Assembly (NCBI GenBank): GCA_020186115.1
Contig: WSYJ01000060.1
Location: 124,001-188,000 of the forward strand
From: Histomonas meleagridis
Taxonomy: Eukaryota; Parabasalia; Tritrichomonadida; Dientamoebidae
Direction of reading: 5' to 3'
DNA: 64,000 nucleotides
Below are positions 27,936 through 47,815 of this stretch, piece by piece. The notes beneath the pieces are model-generated. The model saw nothing but the letters and a program-made list of their open reading frames with translations, was not told the DNA's origin and made no database searches. Position 1 is the stretch's first letter, and each line of letters starts with the position of its first letter. Position numbers and translations under genes: made by a program.

Positions 27936-28007
27936 GGGGCTGTAGCATAATGGCATTGCGTGAGACTCCAGATCTCAAGGTTGGGGGTTCGAGTCCCTTC
28001 GGCCTCA
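27936..28007 (+). tRNA. tRNA-Trp (anticodon CCA)
   Basis: The 72-nt sequence folds as a full cloverleaf. The acceptor stem GGGGCTG pairs with CGGCCTC (with G-U at positions 2 and 6), plus discriminator A. The anticodon stem TGAGA/TCTCA carries loop CTCCAGA, with CCA at 27968-27970. The T arm is GGGGG, loop TTCGAGT, CCCTT with two G-U pairs. The A box TAGCATAATGG and B box GGTTCGAGTCC match Pol III consensus. No CCA tail is encoded. Confidence 0.95.
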
Positions 28008-28306: not shown

Positions 28307-30139
28307 ATGACAGAAAAAAGAGAAGATATTCAGGAAGAAAAATATGACGAAGGAGAGGAAGATGAACAAGAAAAAATGTTAGGAAAAAAATCAAATGATG
28401 ATGAAATTAATAATATTGAAGGCAAAAAAGAAAATTGTGAAAAAGAAGAGGAAAACAAGGAAGAATCAAGTAATACAAAAGAAAACACAAGTGATAAAGA
28501 GAAATCTAGTGATACAGAAGATGATAAAGAAGAAAATAGTTACACAGAAAGTACAGAATCAAATGACAAAGAGAAGTCCGATGACACAGAAGACAAAGAA
28601 GAAAATAGTGAAAAAGAAGAGGAAGATAATGAAGAACTCAGTAATTCAAAAGAAAGCTTAAGCGATAAAGAGAAATCTAGCGGAATAGAAGAAGATAATA
28701 AAGAAGAAAATAGTGACGAAGAAGACAATGAGAAATCTAGTGATAAAGAAGATAAAGAAGAAATGAGTGGTAAAGAAGAAAATAGTGATAAAGAAGAAGA
28801 TAAAGAAGAAATGAGTGATAAAGAAGAAGACAAAGAAGAGAATAAAGAAGAAAATAGTGATAAAGAAGAAGATAAAGAAGAAATGAGTGATAAAGAAGAA
28901 GACAAAGAAGAGAATAAAGAAGAAAATAGTGATAAAGAAGAAGATAAAGAAGAAACAAGTGATAAAGAAAACAATGAGAAATCTAGTGATAAAGAAGATA
29001 AAGAAGAAATGAGTGATAAAGAAGAAGACACAGAAGAAACAAGTGACAAAGAAGAAGATAAAGAAGAAACAAGTGACAAAGAAGGCAAGGAAGAAAATAA
29101 CGATAAAGAAGAAACTAGTGATAAAGAAGACAAAGAAGAAAATAGTGATAAAGAAGACAAAGAAGAAAATAGTGATAAAGAAGACAAAGAAGAAATGAGT
29201 GATAAAGAGAAATCTAGTGATAAAGAAGAAGACAAAGAAGAAACAAGTGACAAAGAAGAAGATAAAGAAGAAAATAGTGATAAAGAAGAAGACACAGAAG
29301 AAACAAGTGACAAAGAAGAAGATAAAGAAGAAAATAGTGATAAAGAAGAAGACAAAGAAGAAACAAGTGACAAAGAAGAAGATAAAGAAGAAAATAGTGA
29401 TAAAGAAGAAGACACAGAAGAAACAAGTGACAAAGAAGAAGATAAAGAAGAAAATAGTGATAAAGAAGAAGACAAAGAAGAAACAAGTGACAAAGAAGAA
29501 GATAAAGAAGAAAATAGTGATAAAGAAGAAGACACAGAAGAAACAAGTGACAAAGAAGAAGATAAAGAAGAAAATAGTGATAAAGAAGAAGACAAAGAAG
29601 AAACAAGTGACAAAGAAGGCAAGGAAGAAAATAACGATAAAGAAGAAACTAGTGATAAAGAAGACAAAGAAGAAATGAGTGATAAAGAGAAATCTAGTGA
29701 TAAAGAAGAAGACAAAGAAGAAAATAGTGATAAAGAGAAATCTAGTGATAAAGAAGAAGACAAAGAAGAAACAAGTGACAAAGAAGGCAAGGAAGAAAAT
29801 AACGATAAAGAAGAAACAAGTGATAAAGAAGACAAAGAAGAAATGAGTGATAAAGAGAAATCTAGTGATAAAGAAGAAGACAAAGAAGAAAATAGTGATA
29901 AAGAAGAAGACAAAGAAGAAATGAGTGATAAAAATGAAAATAAAGATGAAGACAAAGACGAAACAAGTGATGACGAAGAAAGTGAAAGCGATGATAAAGA
30001 TGAGCCTAAAAATATGACCAAGGAAACAAATGAAGAAAAAGAAGTTAAATCCATTTCGATTACTACAATAGCAGTTGTTACTTTCGGTCTGGTTGCTGCA
30101 GTTGCAGGATTTTTGATATACAGAAGAAGACGTAAATAA
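28307..30139 (+). CDS. Acidic Asp/Glu/Lys/Ser repeat protein with C-terminal membrane anchor
   Basis: The 610-residue product is almost entirely low complexity: DKEEDKEE, NSDKEED and TSDKEE units over residues about 60-550. The last 30 residues are a membrane helix (SITTIAVVTFGLVAAVAGFLIY) followed by RRRRK. There is no N-terminal signal, so it fits a tail-anchored protein with a long acidic cytoplasmic rod, targeting ER, Golgi or hydrogenosome outer membrane. Ser in (N/T)SDKEE is an excellent casein kinase 2 context. The repeat may be length-variable. Long stop-free antisense frames here are by-products of the repeat. Function unknown. Confidence 0.85.
   Translation: MTEKREDIQEEKYDEGEEDEQEKMLGKKSNDDEINNIEGKKENCEKEEENKEESSNTKENTSDKEKSSDTEDDKEENSYTESTESNDKEKSDDTEDKEENSEKEEEDNEELSNSKESLSDKEKSSGIEEDNKEENSDEEDNEKSSDKEDKEEMSGKEENSDKEEDKEEMSDKEEDKEENKEENSDKEEDKEEMSDKEEDKEENKEENSDKEEDKEETSDKENNEKSSDKEDKEEMSDKEEDTEETSDKEEDKEETSDKEGKEENNDKEETSDKEDKEENSDKEDKEENSDKEDKEEMSDKEKSSDKEEDKEETSDKEEDKEENSDKEEDTEETSDKEEDKEENSDKEEDKEETSDKEEDKEENSDKEEDTEETSDKEEDKEENSDKEEDKEETSDKEEDKEENSDKEEDTEETSDKEEDKEENSDKEEDKEETSDKEGKEENNDKEETSDKEDKEEMSDKEKSSDKEEDKEENSDKEKSSDKEEDKEETSDKEGKEENNDKEETSDKEDKEEMSDKEKSSDKEEDKEENSDKEEDKEEMSDKNENKDEDKDETSDDEESESDDKDEPKNMTKETNEEKEVKSISITTIAVVTFGLVAAVAGFLIYRRRRK
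29221..29600 (+). repeat. 120-bp higher-order repeat (two 60-bp, 20-codon units)
   Basis: Successive 60-bp blocks encode DKEEDxEETSDKEEDKEENS with x alternating Lys and Thr, giving a 120-bp higher-order period repeated three times almost without change. Looser copies extend to about 28740 and 29930. Confidence 0.88.
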
Positions 30140-32678: not shown

Positions 32679-32924
32679 TCATATGTTTGGGCTTATATCA
32701 ACTTTTATTTTGATATTTTTCTTTCTATTGTTTTTTGCGTGCATTTGATCTTTGAGTTGATTTTGATTATTTGCAATATATGCTTCATTTCCATTTCTTA
32801 TTAAAAATGAAGATTTGGTGTTTATAGAAGAAGGTTCTGTATTAGAATTTTCGTTTGTACTTTTTTCAAGAAGTAAATTTACTATTTCCATGTAACCTTT
32901 TTGCTGTGCAATTTTAAGTGCTGT
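32679..32924 (-). pseudogene. Orphan terminal ankyrin-repeat fragment
   Basis: On the minus strand, ACAGCACTT at 32924 begins TALKIAQQKGYMEIVNLLLEK and runs on through about 60 polar residues to a stop at 32679. This is the last ankyrin repeat plus tail of a DUF3447/ankyrin protein. Upstream is AT-rich sequence ending AATAATTTGAA, resembling the 3' end of the spacers in the 42.6-47.8 kb genes. No preceding repeat is found. It is therefore a truncated remnant, or a last exon whose partner is lost. Confidence 0.6.
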
Positions 32925-33090
32925 TTCAAATTATTAAAACATATATAAAATTATTTTCTTGCGTGCGTGTTTGCCATGTTTTTAGAATTTTTGGTGGGAA
33001 TAAAAGTGTTTAAAGAAATGTACCAAGTATTTCAGTCAACACTATTTCTCGAAGCAAAATTTTGATTTTCACATAGCATTTCTGTCCTAA

Positions 33091-42613: not shown

Positions 42614-44797
42614 ATGTCGGAAACCACAAATAACTCAAATAAAAAATATCAAAATTTTAGAACAGAAGAAACAGAGATCATTGGATCAATTCAACAAATA
42701 ATATTTAATTTGAATAAAGAAAATATTTTTCAATCAGCTCAATCAATTATTTCCATATTTGATTATAGTTATCCATATTCTTTTAATATAGTTATAAGTC
42801 AATTTATTTTAATTTGTATTTTTAATGCAAATAATGATTTTGATATATATTTCAATTTTATGAAAGAAGTAGAAAAATTTCAAGAAATTAATAAAGTTAA
42901 ATATAAAATTTTCAACGCCTTTGCTAATCTTCTTCTTTTAAAACCTGGTAATCAAGAAACAAATTATCCCCTCTTTAAAATGTTTGAGCATAATATTCTT
43001 GATATAAAATTATCAAAAAATAAGCCGAATCCATATTTTGTCCACTACATGTCTAAAGAAGAAATTAAAAAGCAACATGATATTTTTAAATGGGTCTTAG
43101 GAAACATGAAAGAATTATCAAAGAATGATTGGGAACTTCATAAACAATTAATTGAAGAAGGACTTAATCCGAATGAAATTGCACAAATAATTAGAAAAGA
43201 TGAAATAGAAAAACTTCAAGAAATAGCATCACAAACAGAATTTGATTTTAATCAATTAATTCCAAAATCAATTTATGAAAGATGTTCATTTATTAATCAA
43301 TATAATGTTTCATTAATTGATTATGCAGCATTTTTTTCATCTGTTAAATGTTTTAAATATTTACTTATGAATGGTGCAAAAGTAGAAAATACAGGCAAAT
43401 ATGCAGTTGCAGGTGGAAATCTTGAAATAATTCATTTATGTGAACAAAATCGTTCATCATTTCAAAATGCATATGAAGCAGCAATTAAGTTTCATCGAAA
43501 TGATATCTTTAACTATCTTTATGAAAATAAAATAGGAAACATTGATAATTTAGAAGAATTAGGATATCTATGTATTATGTTATGGAACATTGAAATTTTT
43601 ACTCTTTTACAGAAAAATGGTTTGAAAATTAATGATTATATTATTAATAATGTTGCAAGAAGTGGGAATCTTTATCTCATCAAACACTTCCTAAAAGAAT
43701 ATCCAATTCCAAGAGATATTTTAATATTCTCCCCAAAATCGGGAAATATTGAACTTGTTGAGTATATTTTAAAGCAGAAAGGAATTGATGTTAATGTTAA
43801 AGATATTCATTTGTTTTATTCCTTATTGATATGAGTTATTTAATATTTTAAAATAATATTCCAAAATTATTCAAAATATTTTATACAGCTCTTATGTGTG
43901 CAGCTGAATATGGTCATACAGAAATTGTAAAATTACTTCTTGAACAAGAAGGAATTGATATTAATGCTAAAAATATTTATTTGTTTTATTTTTTATTTAT
44001 TTTAATAATTTATGATTTCAAAATAATATTTGGAAATTATTTCTATTATTTGATACAGCACTTATGAAAGCGTCATGGGTTGAGCATACAGAAATTGTGA
44101 AATTACTTCTTGAACAAGAAGGAATTAACATAAATAATAACGGAGCTTCTTTTTTGTCATATATTTGAATAATTTTATGTTTCTAAATAATTTTTGGAAA
44201 TTATTTAATTTGTTTTATAGAGTATTTATGCATGCAACTAAAAATAATTACATAAAAATAGTTAAATTACTTCTTGAACGAGAAGGAATTGATATCAATA
44301 AAAAAGATTTTTATTTGTTTTATTTAATAAATACTCTAATGATTTTGGATTTCAAGATAATATTTGGAAAATATTTAAATTCTTTCGAACAGCACTTATG
44401 TATGCATCGATAAGAAATCACATAGATTTAGTTTCATTACTTCTTGAACAAGAAAGAATTGATATTAATGCTAATGATATTTATTCGTTTTATTTAAAAT
44501 TAATTTTAACAATTTTGGATTTCAAAATAATATTTGGAAATTATTTAAATTATTTAATACAGCACTTATGTATGCAAGTGAAAAAGGGAATACAGAAATC
44601 GTTAAATTACTTCTTGAACAAAAAGGAATTGATATTAATGCACAAGATATTTATTTGTTTTGTTTAAAAATAATTTTAAGAATTTAATATTTCAATACAA
44701 TATTTGGAAATTATCCAAATTATTTGACACTGCACTTAACAAAGCATCTCAGAAAGGTTTTACAGAAATAGTTGATTTATTTAATCGAATATTTTAG
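42614..44797 (+). CDS. DUF3447/ankyrin-repeat protein, interrupted by six intervening spacers
   Basis: ATG 42614 opens a 399-codon block: a helical N-terminus, then the trichomonad DUF3447-type region (SLIDYAAFFSSVKCFKYLLM, GAKVENTGKYAVAGGNLEII) ending VKDIH at 43810. Six canonical ankyrin pieces follow, each beginning TALM or similar: 43885-43980, 44055-44150, 44219-44314, 44389-44484, 44559-44654 and 44729-44797. The five internal pieces are exactly 96 nt and open; the last ends DLFNRIF and TAG at 44795. Spacers of 74, 74, 68, 74, 74 and 74 nt lie between. Every spacer is 2 mod 3, so reading through breaks frame and removal restores it. Ankyrin arrays bind proteins; partner unknown. The promoter was displaced by the upstream transposon. 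Confidence 0.7.
43811..44728 (+). repeat. Six intron-like spacers in ankyrin gene 1 (170-bp composite period)
   Basis: Spacers are 43811-43884, 43981-44054, 44151-44218, 44315-44388, 44485-44558 and 44655-44728. Each starts near TTGTTTTATT, contains TTTCAAAATAATATTTGG about 37 nt in, and ends AAATTATTT plus one variable codon before ACAGCACTT. Five are exactly 74 nt; one is 68. Each ankyrin block plus spacer is 170 nt, not a multiple of three. There is no GTATGT start and no ACTAACACACAG end. Confidence 0.85.
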
Positions 44798-45603
44798 TGT
44801 GAACTATTATTTCATATTGAATTAGTAACAATCTATGAAATAAAAAGTTTATTACCAATTTGGTATCATTTTTGAGTAAAGTCATTTAAAAAAAATGCTT
44901 TTGATGATGAAATACCATTTCCGAAACCATTCAAAATTTAAATTTTATTTAACACCTTTCTCATGAAGTACAATTTAAGAAGTAATTAAGTTAATTTCAA
45001 AAAATGAATGTTTTCTCAATGGATATCAAAGCAATTGTAAATTCAAAGGTTGCTAATCATTAAAAAACATACCTGCTGTTAATACTGATTCCTTCAAAGG
45101 TAATATGTCATTTGATTCCAAAGATGAAGTGAAAAGTTCATTAATACCTTAAGGTAGGTCTGAATCGGACGATATTTAAGATATGATGAAAAATCTAATA
45201 AATATAATCATTAGCCCTTCATATCCAGTTCATTATTTTCATTAAAAATGTTTTTTGGTTGATTTTTTTTATTATTTATTGTTAGCAGATAAAAATTTAA
45301 TTGAGTAGTTTATTCGAACCCATTCAAATCCGATTTGTCACCCCACCTCAAAAAGTTGAGAAATTTCTCGTATTAAAATATGAATTTCTTGTTACAAAAT
45401 TGATTTTGGACCATATGCATTAATTCAAATACTCCACACTATAGTGGTGGGATATATTTATTTATTTATATTCAAATCTATAAGAGAACCTCGATCCTGA
45501 AGCAACGATTCATATGTTACCAGTTGCTGACGCATAAACAAGTTAAATAAAATTGTTAAATAGATGACAAATATTTTTTTTTTTTTGAAATATTTAACTT
45601 TAC
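44798..45603. other. Intergenic, possible coding remnants
   Basis: About 800 bp between the two ankyrin genes. Short open stretches around 44990-45150 (for example NECFLNGYQSNCKFKG) are interrupted by stops and may be a degraded gene. I cannot name it. CCGTTTAATTATAAACGA just after its right edge resembles promoter elements elsewhere. Confidence 0.3.
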
Positions 45604-47815
45604 TTGAAAACATTTTGTGGCCGTTTAATTATAAACGATTTGATTGTAGCTAAAGTTCAACAGAGTGAATTAGAAAAACTAGAAAAAATTCATCAAATTA
45701 CTTATAACTTAGATAGCAGGAACGTTGTATTATCTGCACATACAATAATCGATATATTAGATCTTAATTACATATTATCATTTAACATAATTATTAGCGA
45801 GATGATATATTATTCATTTTTTTCTCAATCAAATGATTCTACAATATATCTTGATTTTTTAATAGAGATTGAAGAATATGAAAAAATGAATAAGGTCAAG
45901 CTCAGAATATTAAATGTTTTTTCACACTTCCTTATTAAAAAAAATTCACAAGATGCAAATTATTTTCTTATGAATATGATTGAGCAAAATCTAATAGATT
46001 CATACATTCTAGATATTATAAAAAATACAAAAAATAAATACTATATACTGTATATGTTACCTGAAGAATCAAATAAATTAAAAAGGTATTTTAAGAAAAG
46101 ATTTAATGCTAACTATGAAGAACTTTCAAAGAATGATTTTGCACTTCATAAACAATTAGTGAAAGAAGGACATAATCCAAATGAAATTGCAAAAATCATT
46201 CGAAATGAGGACTTAGAAAAACTTCAAGAATTATCATCGCAAACAAACTTTGATTTTAATCAAACAATTCCAAAATCACTTTATGAAAGATGTTCATTTA
46301 TAAATAAAGAAAATGTTACATTAATTGATTATGCAGCCTTTTTTTCTTCAGTGAAATGTTTTAAGTATTTACTTATGAACGGAGCAAAAGTATATTATAC
46401 ATATGAATATGCAATTGCTGGTGGAAATCTTGAAATCATTCATTTGTGCGCACAAAACAAAGCAGCATTTAAAAATTTATATAAAACATCTATCGAATTT
46501 CATCGAAATGATATCTTTAAATATCTTTATGAAAATAAAATTTATATAAACCTAAAAAAAATTGGAAAAAAATGTCTTTTATATCATAATTATGAAATTC
46601 TATCATTTTTACTTGAAAATAGAATGAAAATCAACAATTTTATTATGAATGAAACAGCAAGAGCTGGAAATATATTTCTTCTCAAACATTTTCATAAGTT
46701 TAAACAACTTCCCAAAAATATTTTTGTATTTGCTTCAGAATCAGGAAATATAGAAATAGTAAAATATGTTTTAGGACAAAAAGAAATTGATATTCATTTG
46801 AAAAATATACATTTATTATATTTAATAATTACTTCAATATTTTGATATTCTAAAATAATATTTGGATTTTTTGTCAATTATTTAAAACAGCTCTTATGAT
46901 TGCATCTGAAAATGGTCATGTAGATATTGTAAAATTAATTTTAGAACAAAAAGATATTGATATCAATGAGAAAACTCTTTATTTATTTTATTTAAAATTT
47001 AATTTAACTTTAAAATATTTCAAAATAAAACTTGGAATTTATATGAAATATTTACCACAGCACTAATTTTAGCAACTGAAAACCGGCATGCAGAAATCGT
47101 TAAATTACTTCTTGAACAAAAAGAAATTGATGTTAATGCCAAACGTGTTTGCTTGTTTTATCCAAGATTTAATCCAATGATTTGATACTTCAAAATAATA
47201 TTTGATAATCAAATAAATCATTTCGAACTTCACTTATTTTGGCATCAAAACTTGGCGATTTAGAAATAGTTAAATTATTTCTTGAATATAAAGGAATTAA
47301 CATAAATAATAGAGATACTTTTTTTTTCTTTTTTGCAATTTATTTGAATAATTTTGTGTTTCTAAATAATTTTTGGAAATTATTTAGATTATTTAATACA
47401 GCACTTATATTGGCATCTAAAAATAAACACATAAAAATAGTTAAATTGCTTCTTGAACAAAAAGGAATTGATATCAATAAAAAAGATTTTTATTTGTTTT
47501 GTTCTTTATTTATTCCAATGATTTTGGATTTCAAAATAATATTTGGAAAATATTTAAATTCTTTCGAACAGCACTTATTTGGTCATCTGAATATGGTCAT
47601 ACAGAAATTGTTAAATTACTTCTTGAACAAGAAGGAATTGATATTAATGCTAAAGATATTTATTTGTTTTATTTTTAATTTATTTTAATAATTTATGATT
47701 TCAAAATAATATTCAGAAATTATTTAAATTAATTGAAACAGCACTAATAAAAGCCTACAAAAAAAGTTATTCTGTAATAGTAAAATTACTTTCCGAGCAA
47801 AAGAATTTCTATTAG
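45604..47815 (+). CDS. DUF3447/ankyrin paralogue with six spacers and no ATG in its conserved N-terminus
   Basis: This is a paralogue of the 42614 gene. ELEKLEKIHQITYNLDSRN aligns with its residues 20-40, and YERCSFIN, LIDYAAFFSSVKCFKYLLMN and EFHRNDIFKYLYENKI are nearly shared. The frame is open from 45598, just after a stop, but has no ATG until 45799, about 65 codons into the conserved region. So the start is lost, non-AUG, or in an unseen upstream exon. Ankyrin blocks lie at 46887-46982, 47057-47152, 47227-47322, 47398-47493, 47568-47663 (each 96 nt) and 47738-47815, ending LSEQKNFY and TAG. Spacers are 74, 74, 74, 75, 74 and 74 nt. The 75 lies in an eight-T run. Confidence 0.62.
46813..47737 (+). 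repeat. Six intron-like spacers in ankyrin gene 2
   Basis: Spacers are 46813-46886, 46983-47056, 47153-47226, 47323-47397, 47494-47567 and 47664-47737. They share the TT(G/A)TTTTATT start and TTTCAAAATAATATTTGG-like core with those of gene 1, yet differ at many positions while keeping length. The 75-nt one would be 74 with one T fewer in its homopolymer. Confidence 0.85.

Follow-up and report, generated by a model that had tools for sequence, protein, structure and literature searches.

Introduction

In Trichomonas vaginalis and T. stableri, introns are short, are found in a few cases within ankyrin genes, invariably carry GT and AG ends, and combine an extended 5' motif with an ACTAA sequence fused to the 3' site; 63 of them are active in T. 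vaginalis (PMC12316389). Departures from that pattern are described for the nonconventional introns of Euglena, which disregard the GT-AG rule and have ambiguous borders (PMC11170887, PMC4770533) and whose ends are joined by base pairing (PMC11170887), and for Amoebophrya, where repeated introner elements with non-canonical ends multiply and carry direct and inverted repeats (PMC7789003). On the protein side, work on fungal NLRs describes ANK, WD or TPR repeats that are nearly identical, exchange between genes, and positive selection at a few positions of the surface, which in ANK repeats lie on the concave face and the hairpin (PMC4986451). The present analysis concerns two DUF3447/ankyrin genes in a 64,000-nucleotide (nt) stretch of the Histomonas meleagridis genome, hereafter the window (assembly GCA_020186115.1, contig WSYJ01000060.1, positions 124,001 to 188,000, forward strand), in which each C-terminal ankyrin block is followed by an AT-rich spacer, usually of 74 nt. 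We argue that these spacers are probably introns lacking GT-AG ends. H. meleagridis is a parasite of turkeys.

The spacers resemble the Trichomonas introns in being short, parabasalid and located in ankyrin genes of an organism that also has spliceosome parts, but they lack the GT/AG ends, the extended 5' motif and the fused ACTAA, and they occur by the thousand in a single unit type. Freedom from the GT-AG rule and ambiguous borders are shared with Euglena; on base pairing the comparison is uninformative, as the RNA fold test on 46 diverged units gave a consensus energy of 0 for real and shuffled columns alike, and hence had no power, with a single-sequence z of 0.09. The likeness to Amoebophrya lies in a multiplying intron family with non-canonical ends, and the difference in that the spacers multiply along with one exon type. 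The available part of the fungal study mentions no intron separator for each repeat (PMC4986451), and the first part of the H. meleagridis genes is DUF3447, Pfam having found no NLR core in the first parts of the two window genes. A further parallel comes from Tritrichomonas DUF3447 ankyrin proteins, several of whose open reading frames (P0043, P0044 and P0046, with relatives P0052 and P0062) pass from an ankyrin hairpin straight into a T-rich tail and end, which would fit introns at the same ankyrin position that annotation had missed; these are known from protein only and differ in that their tails open with valine (GTN) codons, which would fit a normal GT start, so that they offer a lead for a shared position. 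Spacers of this kind were not found described in the listed titles and abstract openings of the open-licence literature on Histomonas introns, ankyrins, DUF3447 and Trichomonas.

Stop Codons Divide Blocks from Spacers

The strongest evidence comes from the distribution of stop codons in a pool of 52 non-overlapping loci of the same genome, comprising 419 blocks and 358 spacers. Under expectations from column composition, which presuppose that columns vary independently, 325 blocks (E<1e-8) should hold 190.9 in-frame stops and hold 2. The most variable codons of the block, 1, 6, 9 and 10, contain none at all, against 28.7, 50.3, 51.8 and 17.2 expected, and the first of these figures supports the assignment of the codon before ACAGCACTT to the exon, as the initial annotation had proposed. 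Among 255 spacers of 74 nt, on the other hand, the first 12 codons carry 162 stops against 165.5 expected (99 against 97.3 at a single codon) and the last 13 carry 99 against 112. The agreement extends close to the borders, with 13 stops against 15.9 at spacer codon 1-3, though confined to 3 loci, and 8 against 9.5 at codon 69-71, in 8 loci; the final codon, 72-74, has 1 against 0.2, too few to be informative. Stops are thus depleted in the blocks and occur at about the expected rate in the spacers of the same units, from which it follows that the blocks are very probably translated, or were until recently, and that the spacers are not. As far as the letters alone can tell, coding gives way to noncoding sequence no more than about one codon from the borders used here.

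Avoidance of stops by flanking blocks in one frame, with no such avoidance in the spacer between them, is the pattern expected of an intron of any kind. Among 203 blocks with a spacer and then a good block downstream, none carries a stop in frame 0, while 176 and 203 do so in the other two frames; blocks that follow 57-nt and similar odd spacers are included in that set and are equally free of stops. Copies whose ankyrin blocks contain stops had been named at the outset as the genomic half of the evidence that would refute removal. When sought through the 52 loci, they made up 4 of 349 full blocks with another block after them, all in one locus. Blocks standing last in a run behave differently (12 of 51 with a stop), as if genes end there. 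Further, intron length should be independent of reading frame, and the 358 spacers span all three classes of length modulo 3.

The first-ranked reading of the initial annotation was that an exon-intron unit, duplicated in tandem, has spread a family of non-canonical introns. It accordingly remains the best account of a set of blocks without stops, spacers with about the expected number and no GT-AG cut. We put the probability that the spacers are introns without GT-AG ends, removed from RNA, at roughly 0.7. On this view a DUF3447-ankyrin gene has an array as its 3' portion, every exon there would supply a single ankyrin repeat, and excision of the spacers from the RNA would let the joined blocks read as one long ankyrin protein with surface residues varying from repeat to repeat. 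The spliceosome may act here on unusual ends, ATTTATTTG-like at the 5' side and ATTTGGA, about 13 nt and ATTT at the 3' side; the exon-intron unit may spread through tandem duplication and exchange between genes, and the variable surface may serve recognition.

The implications would be considerable. If the spacers are introns, H. meleagridis has several times more introns than reported, nearly all of them belong to a single family and break the GT-AG rule, and the open reading frames of its DUF3447-ankyrin genes break off after the first repeat. RNA data that already exist could then be used to test how the spliceosome, or something else, finds such introns, and a large ankyrin protein family with variable binding surfaces would come to light. 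A bolder version, which we hold only tentatively and consider rather doubtful, is that a protist reported to be poor in introns has more than 4,500 of them in a new class, with neither GT nor AG, which consist in part of 20-nt modules and leave by a route that is either unknown or strongly altered. Lying between the single-repeat exons of a large DUF3447 gene family, they would allow exchange within introns to shuffle ankyrin modules with diversifying binding residues, a modular recognition repertoire.

The Two Window Genes

The coordinates of both arrays are window positions obtained from a block profile placed with nhmmer, which reproduced the original count of 12 spacers (ten of 74 nt, one of 68 and one of 75), ten internal ankyrin blocks, every one of 96 nt and without stops, and an in-frame TAG within each final block. 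All features lie on the forward strand. The first coding part of gene 1 (42614..43807) comprises DUF3447, with a PF11929 match of 38.2 bits (cut-off 26.9), and the last uninterrupted ankyrin repeat; its protein reads in frame up to ...DVNVKDI or ...DIHLKNI, as that of gene 2 does, and the frame then enters spacer 1 by 27 nt, stop included, and closes at 43832-43834. Spacer 1 (43808..43881, 74 nt) leads to a block of 32 codons (43882..43977, E 1e-25), spacer 2 (43978..44051, 74 nt) to the block at 44052..44147, and spacer 3 (44148..44215, 68 nt) to that at 44216..44311. Because that unit has a local insertion and deletion, the 96/68 division at 44148 could shift by a few codons. Spacer 4 (44312..44385, 74 nt) and the block at 44386..44481 follow, then spacer 5 (44482..44555, 74 nt) and the block at 44556..44651, which by itself matches PF00023 in Pfam with 40.1 bits (cut-off 21.1). 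Spacer 6 (44652..44725, 74 nt) precedes the last block (44726..44797), with its TAG at 44795-44797.

Gene 2 repeats this organisation. Its first coding part (45604..46809, start codon unsettled) matches PF11929 with 35.6 bits, and its frame enters spacer 1 and closes at 46843-46845. Spacers of 74 nt at 46810..46883, 46980..47053 and 47150..47223 precede the blocks at 46884..46979, 47054..47149 and 47224..47319, respectively. Spacer 4 (47320..47394), with a T run at its start, is the 75-nt one and leads to the block at 47395..47490. Two further 74-nt spacers, 5 (47491..47564) and 6 (47661..47734), precede the block at 47565..47660 and the last block (47735..47815), with its TAG at 47813-47815.

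Extent and Sampling

The unit is widespread in the assembly searched, which has 43,276,120 bases in 121 contigs. The 170-nt exon-spacer unit finds 222 or more matches at DNA level, and a search for the spacer end joined to an ankyrin block, suggested in the initial annotation, was productive: a 34-place pattern over the spacer end and the start of the next block gave 4,573 matches (2,308 + 2,265) at no more than 3 mismatches, while its reversal, used as control, gave 0 + 0. DUF3447 itself has at least 150 matches (150 of 1,695 candidates scored), and all 20 DUF3447 genes fetched by their match to the DUF3447 protein P0002 have at least one block downstream (20 of the first 21, the remaining one being L032). 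The loci are a non-random sample, because they were chosen by unit similarity (L031-L050), by the spacer-end pattern (L051-L060), by the P0002 match (L061-L063 and L068-L087) or by an intron-like pattern (L066, L067); L001-L030, the overlapping L052 and L068-L070, L064, L065, and L088 onward were excluded from the pooled counts.

Among 38 database proteins read, none was a Histomonas-like protein with a full array or the product of one. P0002, which shares at most 55% identity with any of the 101 genome matches listed, continues in frame across a first spacer of equal length, with F-G where TTTGG stands (aligned by eye), and P0017 does so across the 57-nt spacer type (by eye).

Anatomy of the Spacers

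The description of the spacers as length-locked holds to a large degree and not absolutely. Their length is 74 nt in 280 of 358 cases, whereas the other 78 range from 17 to 242 nt, with one overlap of -3 at a weak match, and some of the longest contain a block that the profile missed. Within the 20 diverged DUF3447 genes, 34 of 45 spacers are of 74 nt (15 of 20 first spacers, 19 of 25 later ones), and these 34 have a mean identity of 0.68 and a minimum of 0.42, where composition alone predicts 0.41. That length is held while sequence diverges counts for the intron reading. Positions conserved in at least 31 of the 34 are TTTGG at 52-56, T60, A62, T63, A68, the final three T, T at 7, 12, 19 and 41, and A46; the GG at 55-56 is present in 32 and 31 of 34, respectively, and the last T in all 34. 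When 46 diverged units from more loci are considered, only positions 53, 60, 63 and 74 exceed 90%.

A 20-nt periodicity runs through the spacers, with a self-match at lag 20 of 0.53 against about 0.42. Lengths of 54, 94, 214 and 234, like 74 itself, fit 14 + 20n, though just 11 of the 78 odd spacers have them. Long runs of a single 20-nt module, GGAATATGTTTTAATAATTT-like and in about 10 or 11 copies, occur in L083 (234 nt, after the first block) and on the + strand of L031 (214 nt). The 57-nt spacer type lacks 17 nt at its start and begins again with ATTTATTT; since ATTTATTT follows the exon in 74-nt and 57-nt types alike, the 5' border may precede block codon 32.

Borders and the Splicing Machinery

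Every in-frame cut of 62-86 nt near the borders was scanned in 266 units for its commonest end dinucleotides. Junctions near the borders stay free of stops when 74 or 77 nt are removed, the ends then being TT, TA or AT on the 5' side and AT or TT on the 3' side, and a 71-nt cut makes a junction stop in one unit. No in-frame cut among them pairs GT with AG, in agreement with the 3' boundary without AG that had been proposed. U12-type introns start with AT and end with AC. No AT-AC cut in frame was among the options, and one GT-AC cut gives stops in 21 of the 266 units. The removed length would therefore be 71, 74 or 77 nt, with 68 disfavoured because of the stops at spacer codon 69-71. A pattern search for block pairs free of spacers gave 68 matches, mostly spacer ends judging by their letters, and was set aside. 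L090, a gene of this genome, does lack the spacer, with a junction reading AAT GTA TTA TTT GAA TCT CCA, and the database relative P0005 has VMFE at the junction and lacks the first spacer. Both junctions have two codons more than is found between blocks, and may represent the state before spacer gain or after spacer loss; they do not fix the cut elsewhere.

A PRP8-like gene (PF10597, 213 bits), a U6-like RNA with ACAGAGA (43.7 bits, just under the gathering score of 44) and two U2 matches are present in the genome, and the U2 copy that was read, in part, retains GTAGTA. No consensus for a CTAAC-like branch site matching U2 was found in the 34 diverged spacers, in which C reaches at least 40% at column 42 only. 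Of the T. vaginalis signals, the exact motif GTATGT..CTAACACACAG has 0 genome matches (control 0), a looser form has 4, with 8 for its control, and a third form 1 against 0. Of the four loci of the looser motif (L064, L065, L066 and L067), L065 is open across the site, whereas L064 has a plausible ordinary intron of 25 nt at 1528-1552 on the + strand, GTATGT...CTAACTCAACAG (GTATGTTTTTTTTCTAACTCAACAG). It follows a PH match (25.9 bits), and the open frame beyond fits its removal, the downstream side alone matching no family. This candidate also hints at the normal splice motif of H. meleagridis.

Points Against the Intron Reading

Several observations weigh against the reading of the spacers as introns. 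The spacers lack the GT (or GC)/AG pair of U2-type introns, and the plausible intron of L064, which is unlike them, means that GT-AG splicing probably exists in this genome alongside. The published annotation reports 573 introns predicted by a gene finder, with at most one per gene, the genes having been predicted with AUGUSTUS trained on the transcriptome (PMC8529796). The TTATTT retained at the L090 junction would point to a 68-nt intron. The GG of TTTGG is conserved in only 80-89% of the 46 diverged units. Lengths divisible by three are over-represented in the odd spacers (45, 8 and 25 of 78 for remainders 0, 1 and 2; 26, 7 and 19 when each length is counted once per locus), so that some of them may be retained in frame. 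They are not simply read through, as an in-frame stop occurs in 16 of the 27 spacers of this class counted along with the 203 blocks above, L037 being the locus of 10 of these 16. Locus L047, which supplies the four stop-bearing non-terminal blocks and is the only one of 52 to have any, is probably in decay. The 20 fetched genes may be biased toward first spacers as long as that of P0002, because P0002 itself reads through a spacer.

The contrast in selection is also less clean than the stops. The ratio of nonsynonymous to synonymous differences (pN/pS) between loci is 1.59 (1.28-2.02, bootstrap over 48 loci) for codons 1, 6, 9, 10 and 12 pooled and 0.77 (0.64-0.82) for the remaining block codons. 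The control is weak, with 1.0 for whole blocks, 1.03-1.30 for spacers and 0.61 and 1.45 for blocks in the wrong frames, and it is therefore the stop counts that carry the case. Distance is 0.191 for spacers and 0.215 for blocks. The gene-like ends and pN/pS being the weaker lines, and an ordinary intron being present, our confidence in the intron reading is reduced to the level given above.

Variable Codons and Alternative Explanations

On the sequence, one exon corresponds to one predicted ankyrin repeat in which a small number of surface codons vary strongly. Codons 1, 6, 9 and 10 form 241 residue combinations in 325 blocks, and their variation correlates weakly with spacer distance (r 0.18), that of the framework better (r 0.58). 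Codons 1, 9 and 10 are among the positions randomised in designed ankyrin binders.

Variable surface codons within a near-constant framework are also what a silent store would contain, and the main rival to the intron reading holds that the blocks are donor cassettes, gene-converted into an expressed ankyrin gene, with the spacers mere separators. That 31 near-identical unit pairs differ at 5 or more of the 12 bases of the four variable codons, and that similar spacers could act as homology arms, would suit such a system. Continuation of all 20 fetched DUF3447 genes into an array does not, nor does the clustering of stops in last-in-run blocks, which donors would not need. A long recipient free of interruptions did not turn up, although the matches listed include three open frames of more than 520 aa (726, 581 and 531) that may yet contain one. 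We consider this explanation unlikely, albeit the one to be taken most seriously.

It is very unlikely, in our judgement, that the spacers are removed otherwise than by RNA splicing, whether through ribosomal bypassing or through DNA elimination at some cell stage. Spacer ends that differ from GT-AG would be accommodated, as would spacers made of 20-nt modules (the long ones of L031 and L083), which are unusual in introns. Bypassing is contradicted by take-off and landing codons that mismatch, the exon side being mostly ATT and the spacer end TTT, and elimination by arrays that stand uncut in the assembly. Neither process is known from parabasalids, which also speaks against them.

Less probable still are ordinary spliceosomal introns with borders a few bases off, running from AT to an AG supplied by the ACAG within the block. 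Cuts of 86 and 80 nt stay in frame with 0 and 1 stop-bearing junctions in 266 units, and ACAG resembles a 3' splice site; yet block codon 1 would be lost, the very codon that shows no stop where 28.7 are expected, and that AG is found in only 83% of the 266 units. Dead arrays, that is, a broken repeat amplified and homogenised by gene conversion without a product, are the least credible of all, since tandem structure, many copies, a broken read-through frame, a whole-block pN/pS of 1.0 and the stops of L047 would fit them, but the depletion to 2 stops from 190.9 in the blocks, beside spacers near expectation, would not. Two forms of translation were rejected outright: read-through of the spacers, which breaks the frame and meets stops at the expected rate, and a frameshift within the spacer, given stops near both borders.

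Other Features of the Window

A lone ankyrin block (ETALKIAQQKGYMEIVNLLLEK...) lies on the - strand at window positions 32832-32927, with a spacer-like 20-nt module ahead of it and no DUF3447 gene beside it in the stretch read; it is perhaps a relic terminal exon. A tRNA-Trp gene occupies 27936-28007 on the + strand, and a long tandem repeat array of AAAGAAGAA-like units extends over 28691-29981 within an open frame of 610 codons.

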